Positions 17,467 through 57,249 of a DNA stretch of 64,000 nt are shown one piece after another. Below the pieces are notes generated by a model that worked only from the letters and a program-made list of their open reading frames with translations, had not been told where the DNA came from and searched no databases. Numbering within the stretch: position 1 is the first letter of the stretch; every line of letters starts with the position of its first letter. Position numbers and translations under genes: made by a program. Origin of the DNA: a virus. The stretch covers positions 1-64,000 of the IMG/VR virus record IMGVR_UViG_3300025467_000007; one strand, 5' to 3'.

Positions 17467-18144
17467 CTAATCTATTGAACCGTCTTCAACTTTAAGTTTT
17501 ATCTTTTTAGCTGGTTTTGGTTGGTCAACGATCTCATTTTGTTTTTCTGCTAACTTTTTAGATTGTTGGTCCACAGCCTCGAACCTCTTCTTAAGTCTTG
17601 GCTTGATGTCTTCTGAATTGAACCATAACTCGATGCCGTTTAGGACCTTCTGGATCTCATCAGCTGATAAGAAACCTTTATATGCATCCTTTAACAGCTT
17701 CTCACATTGGGCGATAGTGAAGTCTGTGTGTGCTTTAACTGTAGGAGTGTTACCGGCCGATCCGAATGATGCTGTGTGGATCATGATGTATGCTGTATCA
17801 TAGACATGGACAGCATGGCAATACATGGCGATAAGAGAGGCAGCAGAGTGACATGCACCCATAAGGAATGCAGTCACTTCTGCCTGAGATGAAAGGATGC
17901 CTGATATGATTGCTCCAGCAGAATCAAGGTTACCACCATTTGAGTTTATGTATAGGTGGATCTTGTCGTTCTCTGATGCATTTACAAGTAAAGAGATAAG
18001 CTCTCTATACTTTCCAGGTTCCTCTATCTCTTGATCTAGGAATACTTCATGTGTTCTATATACAGATTCAATCGTATTGATATGTACATTATTAAGTAAT
18101 CCACTAAATATACTAGGGACGTTTTCACCTGCAAGTTTGTTCAT
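17467..18144 (-). CDS. clpP: ClpP-like serine protease
   Basis: A 225-residue protein with the ClpP/crotonase fold: LYINSNGGNLDSAGAIISG forms the oxyanion region, MGACHSAASLIA carries the nucleophile S100, and YIMIHTASFG the catalytic H123. Length is close to bacterial ClpP (about 200), with a Lys-rich C-terminal extension. No Clp ATPase gene is in the window, so it may use a host unfoldase or act on prohead or host proteins. Ends close to a promoter for gp33; the downstream-coded SleB-like gene lies upstream. Confidence 0.82.
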   Translation of the reverse strand: MNKLAGENVPSIFSGLLNNVHINTIESVYRTHEVFLDQEIEEPGKYRELISLLVNASENDKIHLYINSNGGNLDSAGAIISGILSSQAEVTAFLMGACHSAASLIAMYCHAVHVYDTAYIMIHTASFGSAGNTPTVKAHTDFTIAQCEKLLKDAYKGFLSADEIQKVLNGIELWFNSEDIKPRLKKRFEAVDQQSKKLAEKQNEIVDQPKPAKKIKLKVEDGSID

Positions 18145-26634: not shown

Positions 26635-28644
26635 CTACTTAGATTGTGCCCTAAAAGTGCCATCCCATTCAGCCGGGAGGCCCTCTTCCATACGTTCAAT
26701 CATGTTCATGTAGTACTGCTTGATGGTTACGCTGTCATCTTCGACCAAACCTTTGGCCCATTTGATAGCTTTATCCCAGTTTCCACGATAGTATTCTTTT
26801 ATGTATTCATTATGCGCGTGTTTAACTGTCTCACCGATCGTGTAGATCTTAATGCCTTCAGTCTTACCTTTCACTGCGATGTTATCTAGTTCAATAACGT
26901 TGTAATGGTCTTTAACTAGTTCTGCTGTGCGTGCACCTAAAACAAGCTTAACACCGTACGGCTTAGATTGTCCTTCAAGCCTTGACGCCAAATTGACTCC
27001 GTCACCGAGACAAGTATAGTCAAAACGCTGGCTAGAACCCATATTACCCACAACGACATCAGCAGTGTTAATACCAAGTCCCATCCCGAAAGCCGGTACG
27101 CCTTCTTTAGCAATCTCTTGATTGAACGCATCTAAGTCTCCTAACATTGATAGTGCAGTCTTAACTGCGTTGAGAGCATGATCTTTATCATCAAGTGGAG
27201 CATTCCAAAAAGCCATCTGTGCATCACCAATATACTTATCAAGTGTTCCGTTGTTCTCTATGATCTTAGCAGTCATAGCTGTCATGTAACGATTCATGAT
27301 CTTAGTTAAGCCTTGTACATCCTTACCATAGTGTTCTGATATGGTTGTGAAGCCTCTTACGTCTGTAAACATGATACTTAATTCTCTTGTTTCACCACCA
27401 AGCTTTAATAGTTCTGGGTTCTTTTGTAGTTTATCAACCATTGCTGGTGATAGGTATGTACCAAACTGTTTCTTGATCTGTAGTTTTTGGTTTAACTCGC
27501 TTACAAACTTAACAGTATATGTATGAGCATATACGATAGCCAAAGCAACGATAGGAAAAATCCCATCCAAAAGAACGCCGTAATGAGAGAAAACATAACT
27601 AGAAGCGTAATACAAAAAGCCAAGAAGAAGCAAAATAGGGATAATAGCATATTTCCACCTTGATAGGATAATGATAAAGATTGATAATAATATGACTGCT
27701 AATACTTCAGCGCCATCTGCCCAGCCAGGTCGTGATATGCTAGTACCTGATGTGAGCGTGTCTAGAACTGACGCTTGAAGGTAATGAGGAAAGAGTCCAC
27801 CTCGAGCTGTTGCAACTGGGTTGTTAAGTCCCTTTGCGGTAAGCCCAACAATGACGATACCTCCGTTAAATGATTCTGGGAGGTCCATAAGACTGTGTTC
27901 AATTGGAGTCGAGCTCCAGTCGACCCAGATACGACCGATTGGGTCGGTTGTAATTTTGGAGAAGCTTGGGATTCGAACAGCTTCGATTCCTGAAACGGAA
28001 GATTTGACTTGGAAACTTGGGTCTCCGACTGCGACACGCAAAGTTTCGAGAGTAATACTTGGGTAGAGCAAGCCTCCGCTTGATACGACCATAGGGATAC
28101 GACGAACAACACCATCAATTTCAGGTAAGACATTTACAACTCCTATTCCAGCAGCTTTGTTATTAAATAGTTCAATGTTAGGTTGGATCCCAGGGTAATC
28201 AATAGTGAAGTCATGAGCTGGTGATCCAATCTCAGAGACTCCCGGTCTAAATGCTTGTCTAACTTGTTTATCTGTCGATGCTACCTGAGGTAAGACGACA
28301 GGGTGTCCAGCAAGACTATCAACCAAGTTGGCATCGCGTCCAAAGCGATCAGAGTCAGGCATAAAGATATTAAAAACAACAAGACCAGCATGACGGTGAT
28401 AAAGATCCTCGATAATATTTGCATATTGACTCCTTGGAAATGGGAATTGACCAAGTCTTTCAATCGACTTATCATCGATGTTAACCACGTGGACTTGCTT
28501 GGAAACGGTCTGTGGTTTACTAGTAATTAGTGTATCAAAGTACCTTAGTCGAACTGACTGCACAAAAGATGGGTCAGATGCTCTAATACCTACTAGCAGA
28601 GCTAACGTTAACAGTGCAAACCAGGGTGATAATAATCTTTTCAT
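26635..28644 (-). CDS. CHASE2 sensor adenylate cyclase, class III
   Basis: A 669-residue membrane enzyme making cAMP. After an N-terminal membrane helix, residues 30-300 form an extracytoplasmic CHASE2 sensor (VVNIDDKSIERLGQFPFPRS, FNIFMPDSDRFGRD). Three further membrane helices (313-376) lead to a class III cyclase domain (420-610). Both metal aspartates are present (MFTDVRGF, D428; KYIGDAQMAFW, D474), K470 and T544 fit adenine recognition, and N551 and R555 in GDGVNLASRLE are the transition-state residues, so it should be active. In bacteria such enzymes often sit next to FecR proteins, and a FecR gene lies 2 kb upstream here. An origin by transfer from a host is likely. Confidence 0.9.
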   Translation of the reverse strand: MKRLLSPWFALLTLALLVGIRASDPSFVQSVRLRYFDTLITSKPQTVSKQVHVVNIDDKSIERLGQFPFPRSQYANIIEDLYHRHAGLVVFNIFMPDSDRFGRDANLVDSLAGHPVVLPQVASTDKQVRQAFRPGVSEIGSPAHDFTIDYPGIQPNIELFNNKAAGIGVVNVLPEIDGVVRRIPMVVSSGGLLYPSITLETLRVAVGDPSFQVKSSVSGIEAVRIPSFSKITTDPIGRIWVDWSSTPIEHSLMDLPESFNGGIVIVGLTAKGLNNPVATARGGLFPHYLQASVLDTLTSGTSISRPGWADGAEVLAVILLSIFIIILSRWKYAIIPILLLLGFLYYASSYVFSHYGVLLDGIFPIVALAIVYAHTYTVKFVSELNQKLQIKKQFGTYLSPAMVDKLQKNPELLKLGGETRELSIMFTDVRGFTTISEHYGKDVQGLTKIMNRYMTAMTAKIIENNGTLDKYIGDAQMAFWNAPLDDKDHALNAVKTALSMLGDLDAFNQEIAKEGVPAFGMGLGINTADVVVGNMGSSQRFDYTCLGDGVNLASRLEGQSKPYGVKLVLGARTAELVKDHYNVIELDNIAVKGKTEGIKIYTIGETVKHAHNEYIKEYYRGNWDKAIKWAKGLVEDDSVTIKQYYMNMIERMEEGLPAEWDGTFRAQSK

Positions 28645-28773: not shown

Positions 28774-29664
28774 CTATGCTCCTTGTATTTTAAACTTAAT
28801 ATACTCTGTTATCAAGTCAGCGACGTCAGTCTCACAATACTGTTCAAACCCTTTAAATCCTGGGTTTGAGTTAGCTTCGCATACTCTAAAGCCTCTTTTG
28901 TCGAATAGTAAATCCACACCTGCAATATCTAGCTTAAGTACTTTTGCAGTCTCTCTAGCTATATATTCAATCTCGTCTGTTATCTCGTAGTTATGACCAG
29001 TGCCACCATTAGTGATGTTAGCTCTGAAGTCACCCTCTGGTGCTGTACGTCTCATAGCTCCTACTACTTTACCACCTATGACAAGAACCCTTAAGTCCTC
29101 ACCTGGACGGTCACCAAGATATTCCTGTACTATCATCGTCTTCTTAGCGTTTAAGATATCGATGAACTCCATCATCTTTTTGTACTCTCTTATGGTCTCA
29201 CAGAGGTGTACACCTTCCCCATAAGAACCTGATACCAGCTTAACGACACACGGAAAGCCTATGTTATCAGTCACTAAGTCATCGTCTATAGGCAACCTTA
29301 CTAACATCGTGTTTGGTATAGGTAACCCGTTCTTACTTAATATCTGTGATGTCCTTAGCTTATCTTTTACTATCTCGACAGCAGAGCTTGAGTTAACACA
29401 CATCACGCCTGCTTGTTCAAAGTGTCTTATCACTGCTAGCTGGAAAGGTAGTATGCCTGCACCCAACCTAACCAATAATAACTTTGGTAACTCTATCGTC
29501 TCACCGTCGTACTTGATACCTTCACGTAGGTCTTTATCTACGATGATGTCAAAGTTATCAGGATGGCAGACACGAGCAGTTATACCTTTTGATGTAAAGC
29601 TTTCTACGAGCTTATTAGTCTCGTACTCGTTTCTTTCCTGCTTTGATAATATAATTACAGTCAT
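28774..29664 (-). CDS. rimK: RimK-like ATP-grasp ligase
   Basis: A 296-residue ATP-grasp enzyme. Order: substrate-binding N-domain (LLVRLGAGILPFQLAVIRHF), VKDKLRTSQILSKNGLPIPN, the ATP-grasp core FPCVVKLVSGSYGEGVHLCE, EYLGDRPGEDLRVLVIGGKV, and the metal motif FRVCEANSNPGF. RimK adds glutamates to the C-terminus of ribosomal protein S6; relatives modify other peptides. A phage copy could retune host ribosomes or tag a phage peptide. The -10 is 5 bases from ATG 29664, so the mRNA is leaderless. Confidence 0.85.
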   Translation of the reverse strand: MTVIILSKQERNEYETNKLVESFTSKGITARVCHPDNFDIIVDKDLREGIKYDGETIELPKLLLVRLGAGILPFQLAVIRHFEQAGVMCVNSSSAVEIVKDKLRTSQILSKNGLPIPNTMLVRLPIDDDLVTDNIGFPCVVKLVSGSYGEGVHLCETIREYKKMMEFIDILNAKKTMIVQEYLGDRPGEDLRVLVIGGKVVGAMRRTAPEGDFRANITNGGTGHNYEITDEIEYIARETAKVLKLDIAGVDLLFDKRGFRVCEANSNPGFKGFEQYCETDVADLITEYIKFKIQGA

Positions 29665-29699: not shown

Positions 29700-30053
29700 T
29701 TATTCGAAGCCTTCGTTGCGTTTTACACGCCATACATAAGACATCTGTGTTCCATCTGGCCTATCATCATTGATAAGTATACGCTCACCGTTTGGTAAGT
29801 TAAAGATGATGTCGTCAAACCTAATATCATGTTTCTCTAAGAACTTTATAGTATGCTTCTTAAGATACTTTGGTCTAGCAGTAATTAAGATTATATGGTC
29901 CTTTTCAGGTATAGTATCCCAAAACTCTTTAACACCAGGCAATAACTTATCTTTACATACCGCAGACTTTAATAGGTTATACCTTAATATAGTCCCATCA
30001 AGATCGATAAACCAAGTCTTGCGATGTTTAGACTTTAAGTTAGTTAACTTCAT
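29700..30053 (-). CDS. HAD-superfamily phosphatase
   Basis: A 117-residue HAD protein: WFIDLDGTILRYN (nucleophile Asp and DxD), HIILITARPKYL (motif II Thr), a Lys region, and RILINDDRPDGTQ (motif IV DD). The small size with little cap resembles phosphatase halves of polynucleotide kinase or sugar-phosphate phosphatases. Substrate not known. Follows the DUF4337-type gene without spacing. Confidence 0.78.
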   Translation of the reverse strand: MKLTNLKSKHRKTWFIDLDGTILRYNLLKSAVCKDKLLPGVKEFWDTIPEKDHIILITARPKYLKKHTIKFLEKHDIRFDDIIFNLPNGERILINDDRPDGTQMSYVWRVKRNEGFE

Positions 30054-30617
30054 TTATAGTGGTAACCAGAGCCATAAACCTTGTGACATCAATACTACAC
30101 CAACCAAACATAATAGGAATGATGAGTAGAATAATGGCATTGATACAGCAAGGATAGACGCTGATAACAACACGATAGATAGCTGATAAGCTGTACCTGC
30201 ATAACCGATCCATGGAGATCTCTTCTTAGCATAGTCACGGTCAGCTTCTAACTTCTTAGCTGTATCATATAATGCAGGTTTTCCTTCTGGTCCTTCATCA
30301 TAGCTTTTAGCTTTTACTGCAAATTTCTTAGCTAGATCTGGGTTTGTAGCAGTCTGAGCTGAGATCTCATACTGTGTTTGCTTTACTGATTTAGCTTGGT
30401 AGAAGTTCCATAAGTCGTTTGCTTTGATCGTGTTGTTCATGATGAGTGAACCTAATGAACCTCCGAACCATACGTTAAATGCCAATAAAGCAGCAAATAT
30501 ATTAATGATTAAACCCGCATGTGATTTAATCTTAACCTCTTTTTCTGATCTTGAAGGTCCAATGTTCTTAGTCTCTTCCTTTGTTAATGTCTTAATGACC
30601 ATATCTTCTAAAGCCAT
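30054..30617 (-). CDS. DUF4337-like membrane protein
   Basis: A 187-residue protein with membrane helices near residues 36-60 (INIFAALLAFNVWFGGSLGSL) and two at 140-185, and between them a helical domain with NDLWNFYQAKSVKQTQYEIS, which is the hallmark of DUF4337 proteins found in bacterial genomes. Function unknown. It sits downstream of FecR in the curli cluster, so it may belong to the transferred unit. Confidence 0.7.
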   Translation of the reverse strand: MALEDMVIKTLTKEETKNIGPSRSEKEVKIKSHAGLIINIFAALLAFNVWFGGSLGSLIMNNTIKANDLWNFYQAKSVKQTQYEISAQTATNPDLAKKFAVKAKSYDEGPEGKPALYDTAKKLEADRDYAKKRSPWIGYAGTAYQLSIVLLSASILAVSMPLFYSSFLLCLVGVVLMSQGLWLWLPL

Positions 30618-30618
30618 G

Positions 30619-31683
30619 TTAGTTTCCTTTTTGATTGATGGTTATACTATTGGTCGTTTGGTCTTGATTTTTTAAATTTACCGTTACGCCATTTTGTATA
30701 ATATTTATATTGTATCCTTTATCTTTATCTATTAATACTGTAGCACTATCTTTAACTGTTCTTTGTATCATCCAATATGTTTGTTTGTCAAAAATATAAA
30801 CTTGATTTAGAGCATTATATCCTACAACAAAAGTAGCTAACAATGTATTATCAAGAGCATTTGTTAAATAGTTTGTATCAAGAGGATTAACATCTAGTTC
30901 ATTGAAACCCGCATATGGGTCTTTAAATACTTTTGAATCTAATGCATTTTGTTCCAATCCTGTAAACTCTAAAGCAGAACCAGATTTATTGGCTATTTCA
31001 GCTTGTATTCTTTCAACAACTTCTTTTGGAGGTTTAACGATAAGCATATTATCAATAGCTGATTCTGATAAAGCTAATAGAACAGGTTTAAGAGGTTTAA
31101 TTTCTGATGATTTTGTTACTGTAGCTTGAAATGCTTGGTTTAAAACAACTTTTCCCATAGCTGTGCTAACTTCAATTGAACCAACTGAACCATCTGGATT
31201 AGGTAATAAAATAATGAGAGATTGACCTATTTCATCTACTGTCATTGTGAATGCTGTACCACGAACAGCAACAGTTGCCGTTGGTGTATTAATAGCCACA
31301 TTTTTATTATTTTCATGGGCAATATTACCAGATGCATAACGAACAGTTCCCATTGTTACATTGAGAGCTAATTTACCTGCACCTTTTTTATTGGGGTCAT
31401 AGACAAAATCGTCTATAAGAAGTTTTGAATGTTCGGTAACACGAACTTGTGTGTTATCTTCAAATGTAATGCCTACTATTCCATTGCCTGTTTGAACAAT
31501 ATCATTACTATCTATATTTGATTTAGGTTTAGCCTCTATTACATCTTTATTTCTAGTAATAGAGGCTGGACCTTTTTGTTCAGTTATAGAACCAATTACC
31601 GCCCAACTAGTGTTGGATGACAGACACAGAAGCACCGCTACCAGTAAGGTTAACGATTGCACTATTTGGGTTGGTCGTACCAT
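30619..31683 (-). CDS. FecR-domain periplasmic protein with curlin-like C-terminal tail
   Basis: A 354-residue exported protein (signal peptide ending near SSNTSWA). Residues 30-190 are a FecR domain: VIGSITEQKGPASITRN, DIVQTGNGIVGITFEDNTQV, LNVTMGTVRY and the TPTATVAVRGTAF motif. The last 30 residues (INIIQNGVTVNLKNQD, SITINQKG) look like a curlin repeat (I-x-Q-x-G, N). FecR proteins relay surface signals, and in bacteria they often accompany CHASE2 cyclases. Its first 77 bases overlap the end of the curlin gene in another frame; no later start would keep the signal peptide. Confidence 0.82.
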   Translation of the reverse strand: MVRPTQIVQSLTLLVAVLLCLSSNTSWAVIGSITEQKGPASITRNKDVIEAKPKSNIDSNDIVQTGNGIVGITFEDNTQVRVTEHSKLLIDDFVYDPNKKGAGKLALNVTMGTVRYASGNIAHENNKNVAINTPTATVAVRGTAFTMTVDEIGQSLIILLPNPDGSVGSIEVSTAMGKVVLNQAFQATVTKSSEIKPLKPVLLALSESAIDNMLIVKPPKEVVERIQAEIANKSGSALEFTGLEQNALDSKVFKDPYAGFNELDVNPLDTNYLTNALDNTLLATFVVGYNALNQVYIFDKQTYWMIQRTVKDSATVLIDKDKGYNINIIQNGVTVNLKNQDQTTNSITINQKGN

Positions 31684-32314
31684 CTTGAGTCACACTTATA
31701 TTATTTGAATTACCAATGTTGTTAATACTAATACTATGGCCTGCACCAGCACCAGTACCATTTGCACCTGTTTGGCTTGTGGTGATACTGTTATTGTTAC
31801 CTGCAATTGCTATAGTATCTGTAACATTTTTACTGTTTATGGTACTTGTTATCGAATTACTATTTCCTACAGTAGTGATGCTATAGTTATAATTACTCGA
31901 ATCTCTCATTGTTCCTATATTCAATACAGAATTATTGTTACTACCTGAAAACGATAAATTTAAATTACCGTTATCAGTACCAAAGTTTCCGTAATTCAAT
32001 ACGATACCGTTACTATTACCATCTTGAGATATTACTCCTGTAGAACCACCACCAACAAAATTACCTGTGATAGAGTTGTTCATACCGTTTTGTGTGATAC
32101 CTAAATTAATACTGTTACCATCAATCACAAATGATGGACTACCAACATTAGTAGGATCTCCTACCGTGTTGTTAGAACCTGTTTGTGTTATGGTGACTGT
32201 AGAATTATCAGCGTTAGTTTGGTCAATATAAACACTATTACCTCCACTATCGACTGCCAAAGCACTAAATGCTAATAACAAACCCATCACAAAAGTGATA
32301 AGCTTACTTTTCAT
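31607..32314 (-). CDS. csgA: Curlin-repeat amyloid protein (CsgA/CsgB-like)
   Basis: A 235-residue exported protein from ATG 32314, placed behind AAGGAGAAAAAG; signal peptide MKSKLITFVMGLLLAFSALA. The mature part has about eight imperfect repeats with the curlin consensus of Gln-x-Gly-x-x-Asn ladders: VTITQTGSNNTV, LGITQNGMNNSI, GVISQDGNSNGI, SVTQDGTTNPN and a final VSVIQH. Curlins polymerise outside the cell into amyloid fibres after export through CsgG. It overlaps csgG upstream by 11 bases and fecR downstream by 77. Major and minor subunit types cannot be told apart. Confidence 0.83.
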   Translation of the reverse strand: MKSKLITFVMGLLLAFSALAVDSGGNSVYIDQTNADNSTVTITQTGSNNTVGDPTNVGSPSFVIDGNSINLGITQNGMNNSITGNFVGGGSTGVISQDGNSNGIVLNYGNFGTDNGNLNLSFSGSNNNSVLNIGTMRDSSNYNYSITTVGNSNSITSTINSKNVTDTIAIAGNNNSITTSQTGANGTGAGAGHSISINNIGNSNNISVTQDGTTNPNSAIVNLTGSGASVSVIQH

Positions 32315-33086
32315 TCTTTTTCTCCTTAAATTGCCACATACCTTTTTTTTCACCTTGAATAATCAATTGCTCTACCGCCAGGTCTGTAGCTGCTTTTATG
32401 GCGTGTATAGAAGCCTCTGTTTGAGATATTCCTATCTCTTGTTCAAAATTTTGTGTTCCATTATCAAAAAACTTAAATATAGCTACACCTGCTGTATAAC
32501 TCAATATGGTTTTTTGAGCGTTTACTGTTAATAGCACTTCACCTGTTTGTGTGCTAATTGCTCTTATGCTTACAGTTACAACATCTTCTTGATATTGTGT
32601 GTCTGGTCCAATTCCTAACCAACGAACACCAATACCACCTGTTCTTATGTTTGTATCGTAACTTATAATACCTCCTTCAATAATCATACCTGCATATAAC
32701 ATAGGTCTGATACCAGAAGGATCTTTTGCTTCATCTCTTGCTGAACGAATTAATTGTCTTTCTTTTAATAAATTATCAATACCAACTCGTTCTACTATTC
32801 TAAACCATTTTCCGTCACCAGCATCTTCTAATGACTTTAACAATACTGTTTCACCACCTTGTGTTACAGCGGATGATAACTTAGCAATCGTAGCAGAATC
32901 TTTTCTTTGACCAGTTTTATCAGCAAAGCTATAAACAGCTACAACTACTTTACCATTAACAGGTTCAGGTAACGGAGTCTTAGCCCATTTCATTGGCATA
33001 AGCTCTGGTTCTTTTTTAATAACATTCATTGGCGGTGTGCAACCAATTACTGCTATACACATAAGTGCTATTAATATTTTTTTCAT
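32304..33086 (-). CDS. csgG: Curli secretion channel lipoprotein CsgG
   Basis: A 260-residue lipoprotein with the lipobox VIGC (C16) and the CsgG core: KVVVAVYSFADKTGQRKD, SSAVTQGGETVLLKSLEDAG, WFRIVERVGIDNLLKERQLI, GMIIEGGIISYDTNIRTGG, VTVSIRAISTQTGEVLLTV. Near the E. coli length (277), with both transmembrane hairpin regions represented, so it should form the nonameric outer-membrane pore. It is encoded between CsgF and the curlin, as a compact operon. CsgE is missing. Confidence 0.9.
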   Translation of the reverse strand: MKKILIALMCIAVIGCTPPMNVIKKEPELMPMKWAKTPLPEPVNGKVVVAVYSFADKTGQRKDSATIAKLSSAVTQGGETVLLKSLEDAGDGKWFRIVERVGIDNLLKERQLIRSARDEAKDPSGIRPMLYAGMIIEGGIISYDTNIRTGGIGVRWLGIGPDTQYQEDVVTVSIRAISTQTGEVLLTVNAQKTILSYTAGVAIFKFFDNGTQNFEQEIGISQTEASIHAIKAATDLAVEQLIIQGEKKGMWQFKEKKNEK

Positions 33087-33087
33087 A

Positions 33088-33525
33088 TTAGAAACTTAAT
33101 GTTCCAATAGGAATACTAACTTGCGTCACATTACCATTTTGATCATTAACAGTCATGTTAATCATGTCAGCTGTTTTGGTGTATGTAATAGTATTACCTT
33201 CAATGGTAACAGTTCCACTATTTTGTGGATTCTCACCAAACAGATTATTAATTAATTGTGTAGATAATTGAGCATAGACTCTGCTCTCAAAGTTAGTCAA
33301 GAACTTGGCTAATATAGTATTATTAGCGGCATTTGCTGCATCAATGGCTGCCTGTTTCTGTGCCGCTTCTATTGCTTGCTTGCGTGTGTATTCTGTGTTC
33401 TCGATAGTCTGTACATGAGAACTATATCCTATCCCAGAGAAGGAAGGAGATTTAAACTGAAATACTTGTTCCGCATAAGCGTTACTGCTTATCAGTACTA
33501 CTGCTAGGATCCTGGCGAGCTTCAT
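33088..33525 (-). CDS. csgF: Curli assembly factor CsgF
   Basis: A 145-residue exported protein (signal peptide MKLARILAVVLISSNAYA). The mature N-terminus reads FQFKSPSFSGIGYSSHVQTI, matching the CsgF segment that plugs into the CsgG channel, followed by a helical Ala/Gln region and a beta C-terminus. CsgF couples secretion to nucleation at the cell surface. Starts inside the upstream membrane-protein gene (44-base overlap) and ends 1 base before csgG. Confidence 0.87.
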   Translation of the reverse strand: MKLARILAVVLISSNAYAEQVFQFKSPSFSGIGYSSHVQTIENTEYTRKQAIEAAQKQAAIDAANAANNTILAKFLTNFESRVYAQLSTQLINNLFGENPQNSGTVTIEGNTITYTKTADMINMTVNDQNGNVTQVSIPIGTLSF

Positions 33526-33763
33526 TCTTCTCTTTCTCTCTTAAAGACAGAATAACGTTCACCTTTTGATTGAGCCTAATAAGATCGTTGTCTAACATAC
33601 GAATACGATCTATCAGTTCAATCAATACCTTATTTGAATCACCTAAAACTGGTTTAATTTCTTCTGTTACCCACTTCCATACATAAAAGATTAGATAACC
33701 TAATCCTCCAGCAGCAATAATGGGAAACCCATATTTGTTAATTAAAAATGCTATATCACCCAT
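33482..33763 (-). CDS. Small membrane protein with coiled coil, holin-like (copy 2)
   Basis: A 93-residue protein: one N-terminal membrane helix (KYGFPIIAAGGLGYLIFYVW) followed by a heptad-like helix (LIELIDRIRMLDNDLIRLNQ). The GFPI helix plus short coiled coil resembles BhlA/UviB-type holins, and its neighbour at 33765 has the same plan, so the pair arose by duplication. Located directly before csgF. Confidence 0.65.
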   Translation of the reverse strand: MGDIAFLINKYGFPIIAAGGLGYLIFYVWKWVTEEIKPVLGDSNKVLIELIDRIRMLDNDLIRLNQKVNVILSLREKEKNEARQDPSSSTDKQ

Positions 33764-33764
33764 G

Positions 33765-34040
33765 TTAATCCCTTCGGGCGTCAGATTGTTCTGCTCTTGC
33801 TATTCTATCCAAATCAGGTGGGATACCTAAGGCATGACTTACTTTGGTATCTATACGAATGACGTCATGATTCATAGCTGCGACTCTTTTGTCAAGGGCT
33901 ATGATAATACCACTCATGCCTTTAACTCCAGATGTTACACCAGCTAAGATAAATTTGAGGGTTAAGAAAACGAAATATCCTCCAGCAAGAGCTGAGGCTA
34001 TGGGAAATCCTACCTCTCCGACTAACTTAAGAAAATCCAT
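33765..34040 (-). CDS. Small membrane protein with coiled coil, holin-like (copy 1)
   Basis: A 91-residue protein: EVGFPIASALAGGYFVFLTL membrane helix, then ALDKRVAAMNHDVIRIDTKV helix. Paralogous in layout to the next gene. The late box TATAAATA ends 5 bases before ATG 34040, so this gene is probably the first of a late, leaderless transcript through csgF, csgG, curlin and fecR. Confidence 0.65.
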   Translation of the reverse strand: MDFLKLVGEVGFPIASALAGGYFVFLTLKFILAGVTSGVKGMSGIIIALDKRVAAMNHDVIRIDTKVSHALGIPPDLDRIARAEQSDARRD

Positions 34041-34045
34041 ATAGC

Positions 34046-34053
34046 TATTTATA
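34046..34053 (-). promoter_or_regulatory. T4-type late promoter box in front of the curli cluster
   Basis: TATAAATA, minus strand, 5 bases before ATG 34040, in the 17-base gap after the upstream gene. It would place the small membrane proteins and the curli genes under late control. Confidence 0.6.
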
Positions 34054-35146: not shown

Positions 35147-35433
35147 TTTTTCTTTGTTCTAGCTCTTGTCTCTACAATAAGAGCATCTTGTATACGGATC
35201 TTATCGTCCTGTGCCTTAATTTGTTTCTTTAAATCTTCTATACGTTCGATCAATATTAGATCTTCTGAGTTTAGGTTATTCCATCTACTCGTTGCTTCAT
35301 CTATACGTTTATTTTGATAGACGATCTGCTCATGATAATCCACCATCTGGATATAACACATGAATGATGTATATAAACATGCAGCGCATAATAACGTTAA
35401 CATGAATCCAATTACTCTCAACTTAATTCTCAT
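35143..35433 (-). CDS. Small membrane-anchored coiled-coil protein
   Basis: A 96-residue protein with one N-terminal membrane helix (VIGFMLTLLCAACLYTSFMC) and a charged helix (EDLILIERIEDLKKQIKAQD). Overlaps both neighbours (ATGA to the 362-residue membrane protein). Likely a partner of that protein; unknown function. Confidence 0.65.
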   Translation of the reverse strand: MRIKLRVIGFMLTLLCAACLYTSFMCYIQMVDYHEQIVYQNKRIDEATSRWNNLNSEDLILIERIEDLKKQIKAQDDKIRIQDALIVETRARTKKK

Positions 35434-35854
35434 ACTTTATATGACTCCTATGTACACGACAGTTCACGATCCCATTATACCACTTATCTGGGTTTTCTAA
35501 TACTTCATTTTGCATTTGTAATTTTGCTTCAAAATAACTTGCGGTACCTTTGGATAAGCAAAACATTAGGATTTCCCGTTTGAACTTATCTTCTCCTAAT
35601 GCCTTGACATCATCTATTACTTCTTTTGATGAGGACCAATATGTCCTCCAATCTGATTCTATCTTGCTGCGGATTTTCTTTTTCTTTTTGTTACCGTTTT
35701 TAAGCGTAACTGTTCTTGTAGCAGTCTTAGAAAATTTAGTGAGTTTCTTACCAATATACTTTTTATTGGTAATGCAGTTAGTAATGATATATACAAACCC
35801 AACATATTTATCGTCAATAGTCTCAACGGGCACATTGTTGTACATCCATGTCAT
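35423..35854 (-). CDS. GIY-YIG nuclease, Seg-like
   Basis: A 143-residue protein with the complete N-terminal motif GFVYIITNCITNKKYIGKKL, a basic insert (KNGNKKKKKIRSK), WRTYWSSS, and the catalytic Glu region SKGTASYFEAKLQMQNEVL. No DNA-recognition extension such as NUMOD is present, so it may be a resident nuclease rather than a mobile homing enzyme. ATGA overlap with the zinc-ribbon gene upstream. Confidence 0.8.
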   Translation of the reverse strand: MTWMYNNVPVETIDDKYVGFVYIITNCITNKKYIGKKLTKFSKTATRTVTLKNGNKKKKKIRSKIESDWRTYWSSSKEVIDDVKALGEDKFKREILMFCLSKGTASYFEAKLQMQNEVLENPDKWYNGIVNCRVHRSHIKYEN

Positions 35855-54890: not shown

Positions 54891-56663
54891 TTATTTTCTC
54901 TCGGTTTGCTGTCTCATCCATGAATCATAATCTAGGAGAGTATTAAGGTTTTCTTTTTTAATCTTCTTTTCAAAGAAAGCACTAAAGCCTTTGCCTTTTT
55001 GTTTATTTGGTTCATCATCTGCTGGTGGTGCCATATTAGCTGGTAGTGGTACAACCTTAGTAACCTTTTGGCCTTCTACTTCACCGTCTGCCGACTCCTG
55101 TGTATACTCGCCGTCTTTTGTGATGTAGCATTCTTTACCGTACTTCTTACCAGCTGCTCCAGCTTCTCCTCTTGATTTATGAGGGCCAGATAAGATATCG
55201 TTTGACGCTGTACATCTTACGTAGTAACCAGCTTCGTGTTCAGGTTTGATCTGTACACCTGCTGTCTCGTTCTTTGTCATCACAGACTCAGTAGCATACA
55301 TGACTTTACGTCTACGTAGGTGACGATCTGTCTCTAGTGTATGACCAACTTCGGTATGTTTATGGAACGGGTACTTTTGTAAATCATCGATCTGCTGTGA
55401 GATGTTAGGGTCTAAGACTTGCTTGATCTCTTTGTCATCAGGTATGATGCCTTGGTTCATCTTATGTAGTTTCATGAAGTCAGAGTATCTTAATACGTCT
55501 TGAGCTATGTTATAGGTGTTAGATACGCCTTCCTTGATAGTCATCTTATCAAGCTCGGCTTTATGTTTTTCCCAATGTTCTTTGTGAGAATCAAAGCATC
55601 CTAGTTTCTCTAGTGATTCTCTTGACTTCTTATGAGCTTCTTGAGCATCCTTAACATGTTTAAAGCCATATAGTTCTGGCTTGGACGGGTCGAAGTCATA
55701 GATCTTAAGGTATGCATCAGTTGTCTTGATAGCATTTAACATAGCAACTGGATCTGTAGCTTTGTCCATAGTTAGTTTAAAGGCTTTTGAGCCTTGTGGA
55801 CAATGATGCATATTAGTTGTCGTGTAGCCTTTGTAGGAGATCTCATGACCTTCGTTGACCTCTACTTGCTCAGGCACACAGTTAGGGACTGTCTTACCAT
55901 TTTTCTTTTTAAGGCCGATAGCCTTGTAGCCTTTCCAACATGCTTTAGATAGGGACTTAGCTTCTACTAATGACACATCCTTCACCCATTTCCTATGTAA
56001 GGTGCCAGTGTTATCAACTACGACTAGGTAGTTTGATCCACGGTCCATGATCTCGTACTGATGACCAGCAGACTCAACGATGTCACCCACATGGTAGATC
56101 TCACCTTTAAAGTACTTCTCTCTAAGTATGTCTACTGAGAACTTGATATCTTCTTTGATTAGTTCAAGACCTTGGACTTGTCTCATCTCGTTCATGATCC
56201 TACGAGCGTCAAGTTCACGTACCATTGATGGCAGTTGTTTCTTAAACGATGTAAAGTCACCCTTGGTGACCATTGATTTGATCTTTGAGAAGTCAACGTC
56301 ATTGCCTGTGGTGACAACGTTCATTGACTCGTATAGCTTGGCTTTATCTTCTGAAGCAACTACGATGACATCCTTGTACCTCTTCTTAAGAGCTGTTAGT
56401 TCAGAAGCAAAGTTTGACTCGTTCAATGCCTTAAAGTTCATTGAACCAAACATCATCTCAAGGAAGTGTAGCTTACGATCTACTGGTAGGCTATCCTTGT
56501 CTTCTGTAACATAGATTATGTGGTCGGCAGAGTTTGACTCAACTAGCTTATGGACTAGCTTAAGAGTCATCTCAGTGACCGAGGTAGGCGGGTTAAAGCT
56601 TCCGACTGTCATGATGACGGTCTTAGAAGGCAATTCCCGTATGAGTTGTCTATAGTTCTTCAT
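54891..56663 (-). CDS. Nucleotidylyltransferase-like multidomain protein, presumed head-internal
   Basis: A 590-residue protein. Tag-like start MKNYRQLIRE. Residues 14-130 form a Rossmann-like fold beginning VIMTVGSFNPPTSVTEM, similar to cytidylyltransferase-like enzymes, but the second half of the HxGH motif is replaced (TSVTE), so catalysis is doubtful. Residues 236-270 (SLSKACWKGYKAIGLKKKNG, KTVPNCVPE) are a motif recurring in marine myovirus proteins. The C-terminal region is charged and ends with a helical domain. Internal I/L-x-E sites (QVEVNE, MTIKE) might be cleaved. Confidence 0.7.
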   Translation of the reverse strand: MKNYRQLIRELPSKTVIMTVGSFNPPTSVTEMTLKLVHKLVESNSADHIIYVTEDKDSLPVDRKLHFLEMMFGSMNFKALNESNFASELTALKKRYKDVIVVASEDKAKLYESMNVVTTGNDVDFSKIKSMVTKGDFTSFKKQLPSMVRELDARRIMNEMRQVQGLELIKEDIKFSVDILREKYFKGEIYHVGDIVESAGHQYEIMDRGSNYLVVVDNTGTLHRKWVKDVSLVEAKSLSKACWKGYKAIGLKKKNGKTVPNCVPEQVEVNEGHEISYKGYTTTNMHHCPQGSKAFKLTMDKATDPVAMLNAIKTTDAYLKIYDFDPSKPELYGFKHVKDAQEAHKKSRESLEKLGCFDSHKEHWEKHKAELDKMTIKEGVSNTYNIAQDVLRYSDFMKLHKMNQGIIPDDKEIKQVLDPNISQQIDDLQKYPFHKHTEVGHTLETDRHLRRRKVMYATESVMTKNETAGVQIKPEHEAGYYVRCTASNDILSGPHKSRGEAGAAGKKYGKECYITKDGEYTQESADGEVEGQKVTKVVPLPANMAPPADDEPNKQKGKGFSAFFEKKIKKENLNTLLDYDSWMRQQTERK

Positions 56664-57249
56664 TTTTTGTCGCCAGTTTTTTGCTTAATATTGTTGCTGC
56701 TATTTTAGCTTTAGTTTCTTCAGACCTTGGCACTCCTTTAAATGCTGCAGATATTTTAGCTTTAGTTTCTGCGGAACGTGGAGATCCTTTTACCCAAGGG
56801 CATGATTTACCTCTTTTAGCTTCTGACATTTTCTGTTTTGTTTGTTCAGCAATAATTTTGCCTTTAGCTGAATTAGACATATTTGTTCTTTGTTTTTCAG
56901 TATAAATTTTACCTAATTTAGCTTTAGATTGTTTTTCTCTTGTTAACTTAGTAACTATTATACCGCTAGTACCTTCTCCACCATCTGTCATATTATATAA
57001 TAACCCGGTTCCAAGATCTTTACGACCCCACCAACGGATCATACGACGTTCAAGAGCTAAAGCTCCAATCTCAGTAAGATTAGTTTCTAGTAGTATTATT
57101 TTATTCTTGTCTTTAGGCACTTTAATTCGGCCGTGTGTTTCATACGCACGATCGTTTTTACCCTTACCAATATAGTAAGGAATGCCTTTTTTACTTAGAT
57201 AGGCATATATGTAATATATAGTGCCTAATGGGCTGGGTTTATTCTTCAT
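56650..57249 (-). CDS. GIY-YIG homing endonuclease with NUMOD3 repeats
   Basis: A 199-residue protein: IYYIYAYLSKKGIPYYIGKG (GIY-YIG), catalytic Arg and Glu region (ALALERRMIRWWGRKD), GLLYNMTDGGEGTSG, then NUMOD3-type helices repeated four times (SKAKLGKIYTEKQRTNMSNS, AETKAKISAAFKGVPRSEET). It is typical of free-standing mobile endonucleases and interrupts the block of internal head proteins. Its late box is at 57279. Confidence 0.88.
   Translation of the reverse strand: MKNKPSPLGTIYYIYAYLSKKGIPYYIGKGKNDRAYETHGRIKVPKDKNKIILLETNLTEIGALALERRMIRWWGRKDLGTGLLYNMTDGGEGTSGIIVTKLTREKQSKAKLGKIYTEKQRTNMSNSAKGKIIAEQTKQKMSEAKRGKSCPWVKGSPRSAETKAKISAAFKGVPRSEETKAKIAATILSKKLATKNEEL

Follow-up and report, generated by a model that had tools for sequence, protein, structure and literature searches.

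Curli clusters of phages were published between 2020 and 2022. A cluster was described in pelagimyophages in 2020, with 'sibling capture' proposed for it (PMC7029224). In 2022 the csgF and csgG genes of phage Melnitz were reported, with no clumping of cells in culture and a role in lysis as the proposed function; the report covers these two genes alone and states that csgA and csgB are absent (PMC9004378). In the same year Wittmers et al. reported the module in full, with curlins, FecR and cyclase, from podovirus and myovirus pelagiphages worldwide, together with environmental transcripts (PMC9599517). The upstream genes of the module were called histidine kinases in that work, and the phage organisation was said to resemble that of Alphaproteobacteria. 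Here we analyse a type VIII (curli) secretion module in a 64,000-nt stretch (the window) of the 160,126-base virus record IMGVR_UViG_3300025467_000007. A first-pass annotation of the window had considered a complete set of export genes plus substrate to be far less familiar in phages, a view that does not stand beside the full set in PMC9599517 and the two other reports. Because of these publications the cluster itself is not new; what is new is mostly a sharper reading of FecR and of two small membrane proteins, hA and hB.

Results

A curli module in a T4-like myophage

The genes for CsgF, CsgG, a curlin-repeat protein and a FecR-domain protein form one operon on the minus strand, read from high to low coordinates (Table 1). 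All four proteins exceed the cut-offs of their Pfam profiles, for instance 65.1 bits against 25.8 for CsgF and PF10614. The first-pass annotation had placed the four genes at these coordinates, which open reading frames and Pfam matches confirm, and the profile search that it had recommended matched CsgG, CsgF and the curlin repeat alike. Two of its statements needed revision. The genes do belong to a single operon, with overlaps of 44 bp between hB and csgF, 11 bp between csgG and the curlin gene, and 77 bp between the curlin gene and fecR, but csgF and csgG do not overlap, being separated by a gap of 1 bp. The proposed extent of the cluster (30619-33525) holds the core genes but is only the middle of the conserved unit, which starts with a late promoter box and the hA and hB genes and has a CHASE2-cyclase gene as its last member.

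The scan of viral contigs for CsgG relatives yielded 92 confirmed relatives, 80 of which were kept as loci. In nearly all of the 80 viral loci with adequate flanks the order is h-h-CsgF-CsgG-curlin-FecR-(second curlin)-CHASE2-class III cyclase, and the cultured phages HTVC008M and Melnitz show the identical order. The same cluster, which the first-pass annotation had advised looking for, is thus present in other phages. The window follows this pelagiphage-type order except for the second curlin, which HTVC008M, Melnitz and numerous loci in the other clade possess; no such gene was found between fecR and the cyclase gene in the clade of the window. On sequence grounds the parts, and the module as a whole, are identified with near certainty, and the assignment of the record as encoding a phage type VIII secretion module is well supported.

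Phage genes flank the curli region on both sides. The record encodes a T4-type gp23, gp32, a DnaB-type helicase and baseplate proteins, and the source virus is therefore, by its gene content, a T4-like myophage. The nearest relative of its major capsid protein is that of Melnitz (63%; the closest cultured relative), followed by a small margin by those of cyanophages, and a tail protein of the record has its best relative in a Synechococcus phage (36%).

Table 1. Features of the curli unit and of its surroundings in the window.
Feature	Position	Strand	Basis and remarks
T4 late-promoter-type box TATAAATA	34046-34053	-	starts 13 nt upstream of the hA ATG
hA, 91-residue membrane protein	33765-34040	-	phrog_18771 E=3e-34; family alignment
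hB, 93-residue paralogue of hA	33482-33763	-	profile comparison, probability 98.5%
CsgF homologue, signal peptide and FQFKSPSFSGIG plug motif	33088-33525	-	PF10614 E=9e-18
CsgG homologue, lipoprotein, putative outer-membrane secretion pore	32304-33086	-	PF03783 E=1e-48
Curlin-repeat protein, 235 residues, signal peptide	31607-32314	-	PF07012 E=2.5e-6
FecR-domain protein, signal peptide, beta-rich C-terminal domain	30619-31683	-	PF04773 E=7e-9
DUF4337 protein, two transmembrane segments, accessory insertion of the sub-clade of the window	30054-30617	-	PF14235 2.9e-24; 8 loci
HAD-like phosphatase, accessory insertion	29700-30053	-	assigned by DLDGT motif alone; 3 loci
RimK-type ATP-grasp ligase, accessory insertion	28774-29664	-	PF08443 2.9e-49; 2 loci
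CHASE2-class III adenylate/guanylate cyclase	26635-28644	-	PF05226 3.7e-38, PF00211 1.5e-18, phrog_35576 6e-282
Multi-transmembrane protein, 362 residues	34058-35146	-	weak DUF4407 (E=1e-3); adjoins the curli unit on its upstream side
GIY-YIG-like homing-endonuclease-type open reading frame	35423-35854	-	by eye; between curli region and ribonucleotide reductase
ClpP-type protease	17467-18144	-	PHROG ATP-dependent protease / head maturation protease; near gp32
NUMOD3 protein	56650-57249		

The export pore and its substrate

Residues 4-257 of CsgG match solved Escherichia coli CsgG in the PDB nearly end to end (E 6.5e-45). The lipobox Cys16 is invariant across 19 phage CsgGs and the CsgG core is conserved, in agreement with the earlier description of a full-length CsgG with a lipobox. 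The channel-plug motif ascribed to CsgF was likewise borne out: a motif of the FxFKSPSFxGxG type is conserved, with an invariant core, in 18 phage CsgFs.

The curlin has at least seven GxxN repeat units, which PF07012 matches in four separate stretches, and ends in SVSVIQH. Its N-terminus carries a hydrophobic segment of the Sec signal type, and the repeats are conserved in an alignment of its phage relatives. An AlphaFold 2 (AF2) model gives an all-strand repeat protein with a predicted local distance difference test score (pLDDT) of 80.9. Repeats and signal peptide are as first annotated; as the start, the ATG at 32314, preceded by AAGGAGA and overlapping csgG by the 11 bp given above, is more likely than the GTG at 32353.

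A late promoter box ahead of hA

The end of the TATAAATA box lies 5 bases from the hA start codon (34040). Among 54 distinct relatives, 32 have the box within 60 nt upstream of hA, compared with 0.8% of random 60-mers. The -13 spacing is frequent among them, while others have longer leaders. The window holds 13 such boxes where 6.6 are expected, and several of the further boxes sit shortly upstream of gene starts. Placement at hA, recurrence in relatives and the excess of boxes make late transcription of the operon a well-supported prediction, and the late box named in the first-pass annotation does adjoin the first gene of the unit. With the box only 13 nt before the start codon, a late mRNA would have almost no leader.

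The FecR-domain protein

The FecR profile spans residues 63-155. No second transmembrane segment and no N-terminal cytoplasmic sigma-binding region, as regulators of the FecR/PupR type would need, was found in the protein. In the AF2 model the fold of its N-terminal part resembles the extracytoplasmic signalling domain found in PupR-type proteins (Foldseek 5e-5); a 'cell surface anchoring domain' is matched more weakly (5ix9, E 8.8e-3, probability 1.00). The resemblance is one of fold only, as a sequence-profile search against solved structures returned none. The C-terminal 70 residues are predicted to form a compact beta region (pLDDT of the block mostly 78-91) that ends in NSITINQKGN, resembling a curlin strand. 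A PhixPhixQ ending is found in 54 of 55 phage FecR copies, compared with 8.3% of shuffled tails, and both curlins end likewise. Since it has a signal peptide, no regulator N-terminus and this curlin-like end, FecR could well be a secreted component of the fibre, a possibility that we place a little short of probable. A secreted anchor or nucleator, like CsgB, is more likely than a sigma-factor regulator.

The small membrane proteins hA and hB

Both proteins have one N-terminal hydrophobic segment followed by a helical tail, and each carries a strictly conserved signature peculiar to it. hA has the single transmembrane segment GFPIASALAGGYFVFLTLKFIL and a soluble tail with a DARRD end; hB has a conserved YGFP at the entry of the membrane segment and the helix LIDRIRMLDNDLIRL. 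The published 'HK' genes were equated with hA and hB by their position in the module alone. A histidine-kinase identity was rejected: the proteins are only 91-93 residues long, HisKA and HATPase domains were not found in them, and none of 35 members of the family (17 of them hA) matched a kinase in Pfam. hA was not found in 289 alphaproteobacterial genomes, in a search run without a positive control. In size and topology hA and hB are holin-like, although the best matches to holin-type profiles are below significance. A third member of the family, of about 143-147 residues, stands ahead of the usual pair in four loci (L016, L017, L018 and L024).

The cyclase, the accessory genes and the cellular counterparts

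The metal-binding, purine and transition-state motifs of the cyclase are intact. In the window the DUF4337, HAD-like and RimK genes separate fecR from the cyclase gene. The RimK-type ligase scores above the cut-off of the RimK subfamily and below that of the S6-modification equivalog. Relatives of the multi-transmembrane protein upstream of the unit occur in 21 loci, mostly immediately before hA.

The cellular curli loci nearest to the phage CsgG contain CsgG, mostly CsgF and often curlins; hA/hB, FecR and cyclase were not found in the loci examined, including four alphaproteobacterial ones with flanks of about 8 kb. Likeness to Alphaproteobacteria therefore holds, in this small sample, for csgF-csgG-curlin only. 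FecR-domain and CHASE2-cyclase genes are adjacent in some Alphaproteobacteria (L201, L202 and L204) without curli genes, and cellular FecR proteins are often far longer than that of the phage, with open frames of 500 to over 6,000 residues. Some contigs filed as bacterial metagenome-assembled genomes or bins (L084, L085, L087-L092 and L094), labelled Flavobacteriales, Rhodobacteraceae, Sphingobacteriales, Saprospirales, Synechococcus or Pelagibacter, carry phage-type curli genes in phage order and are probably misbinned phage contigs.

Discussion

What would such a module do for a phage? We consider it probable that it is a late-expressed type VIII (curli) system exporting curlin fibres, and fairly probable that export of curlin is functional. 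Late in infection, curlin and FecR would cross the inner membrane through the host Sec system, as their signal peptides suggest, and would leave through a CsgG-CsgF pore in the outer membrane that operates without CsgE. Curlin would then polymerise on the surface of the infected cell, where FecR might nucleate or anchor the fibre in a CsgB-like role. The CHASE2 cyclase may read the periplasm, possibly through FecR, and make a cyclic nucleotide; we regard this signalling loop as doubtful. The export reading draws on the part-by-part profile matches, the invariant lipobox, the kept plug motif, the conserved repeats and all-strand model of the curlin, the fixed gene order and the late box, to which are added the signal peptide and PhixPhixQ end of FecR and the transcription of the published module at sea (PMC9599517). 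As a guess, the phage might benefit by keeping neighbouring hosts close or by blocking competing phages.

Several observations weigh against the export of fibres. The absence of CsgE, already claimed in the first-pass annotation, was borne out by a search of the 160-kb record with PF10627 that detects E. coli CsgE and found none there. Published phage curli modules likewise lack it (PMC9599517), and E. coli CsgE boosts export but is not essential (PMC7029224). With CsgE missing, the pore must either be gated in another way or require no gate. The constriction of E. coli CsgG, formed by residues Tyr51, Asn55 and Phe56, is not kept, the phage protein having KDSATIAKLSSAV where E. coli has FKPYPASNFSTAV, with position 56 still hydrophobic (Leu or Phe across phages); replacement of the triad also points to a changed gate. 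Of the structure searches recommended in the first-pass annotation, the one with CsgG succeeded, whereas phmmer found no match to CsgF in the PDB and Foldseek gave nothing significant for the curlin model. No solved curli was matched by this model, so that amyloid formation is suggested by repeat homology alone. For the FecR tail, the 54 copies with the PhixPhixQ ending are related and hence not independent counts, and the pattern is loose; the ending is therefore suggestive of a curlin repeat, not proof of one. Scored with a position matrix of the curlin repeat, FecR tails on average exceed segments of the FecR body but fall far below real curlins, mostly within the range of shuffled sequences (just 16% lie above the 95% level). 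On this weak score we rejected the idea that the FecR tail contains a full curlin repeat and claim only the terminal PhixPhixQ strand as shared. Finally, the Melnitz cultures did not clump (PMC9004378).

Other functions have to be weighed against fibre export. The module might be a device for lysis or its timing, in which CsgG is a large envelope pore, hA and hB are holin-like partners and curlin is secondary; a version with a pinholin-like CsgG, and the argument for lysis timing, come from the Melnitz study (PMC9004378). The late box upstream of the operon and the size and topology of hA and hB fit this view, as do weak, non-significant matches, one between hB and a holin PHROG (0.053), the others between YvrJ and members of the hA and hB families (0.16 and 0.4 for hA and hB, respectively). 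Yet curlin and FecR are retained almost as strictly as the pore, and a pure pore has no need of conserved repeats. CsgG is moreover an outer-membrane lipoprotein while holins act in the inner membrane, and the Melnitz argument assumed that there were no substrates, yet its record annotates two curlin-repeat proteins. We regard a lysis device as unlikely. An ungated CsgG could instead admit large nutrients to the periplasm of infected oligotrophic cells (PMC7029224, PMC9599517), for which the missing CsgE gate and the altered constriction speak. This uptake pore appears very improbable, as it leaves CsgF, the conserved curlin or curlins and FecR unexplained and the late timing is ill suited to feeding an infection.

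The regulatory interpretation of PMC9599517, with FecR as an iron-responsive regulator and the upstream histidine kinases and the cyclase controlling the operon, finds agreement in the PupR-type signalling fold of FecR and in the intact cyclase. We nevertheless judge it quite unlikely: the supposed kinases are too small and match no kinase model in any of 35 members, FecR has a signal peptide and lacks the cytoplasmic sigma-binding region and second transmembrane segment, and most of its alphaproteobacterial relatives are long proteins with a FecR domain. Curli genes normally belong to bacteria, and the first-pass annotation had named a chimera of bacterium and phage as a finding that would refute the cluster. 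An assembly chimera or host contamination was rejected as practically negligible because the identical order recurs in the genomes of cultured phages and in viral contigs, dozens of them and independent of one another; gp23 and gp32 in the record and phage genes on both flanks also oppose it.

A further and less probable reading, beyond the export of curlin fibres, is that two cellular systems have been fused in a way peculiar to phages: curli export and an envelope-sensing pair of FecR and CHASE2 cyclase. FecR would then have become another exported subunit of the curli type, the third, recognisable by the C-terminal strand that it shares with the curlins, and would nucleate or anchor the fibre; the cyclase would report the surface state of FecR into the infected cell, and in the sub-clade of the window FecR would stand in for the second curlin, which was lost. 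If fibre export is true, the module would have consequences for aggregation, for superinfection and for the rates of phage encounter. The revised view of FecR as secreted and curlin-ended, and of hA and hB as proteins other than kinases, bears on how export without CsgE works.

Comparison with known systems

HTVC008M and podophages of the HTVC023P type (PMC9599517, PMC7029224) have the same genes in the same order as the module in the window, and in HTVC008M the module lies beside T4-like core genes. The CsgG proteins of HTVC008M and the window are 46% identical over the aligned 80%. Methylophilales phage Melnitz also shares the gene order, with a CsgG identity of 41%. Two curlins are annotated in the Melnitz record, whereas the window lacks the second one and, compared with the pelagiphage module, has DUF4337, HAD and RimK genes in its place. 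The curli operons of bacteria (csgBA/csgDEFG), with solved CsgG structures such as 4uv3, encode homologous CsgG, CsgF and curlin-repeat proteins. Relative to these operons, the module in the window dispenses with CsgE and has hA, hB, FecR and the CHASE2 cyclase, which are absent from the cellular curli loci examined.

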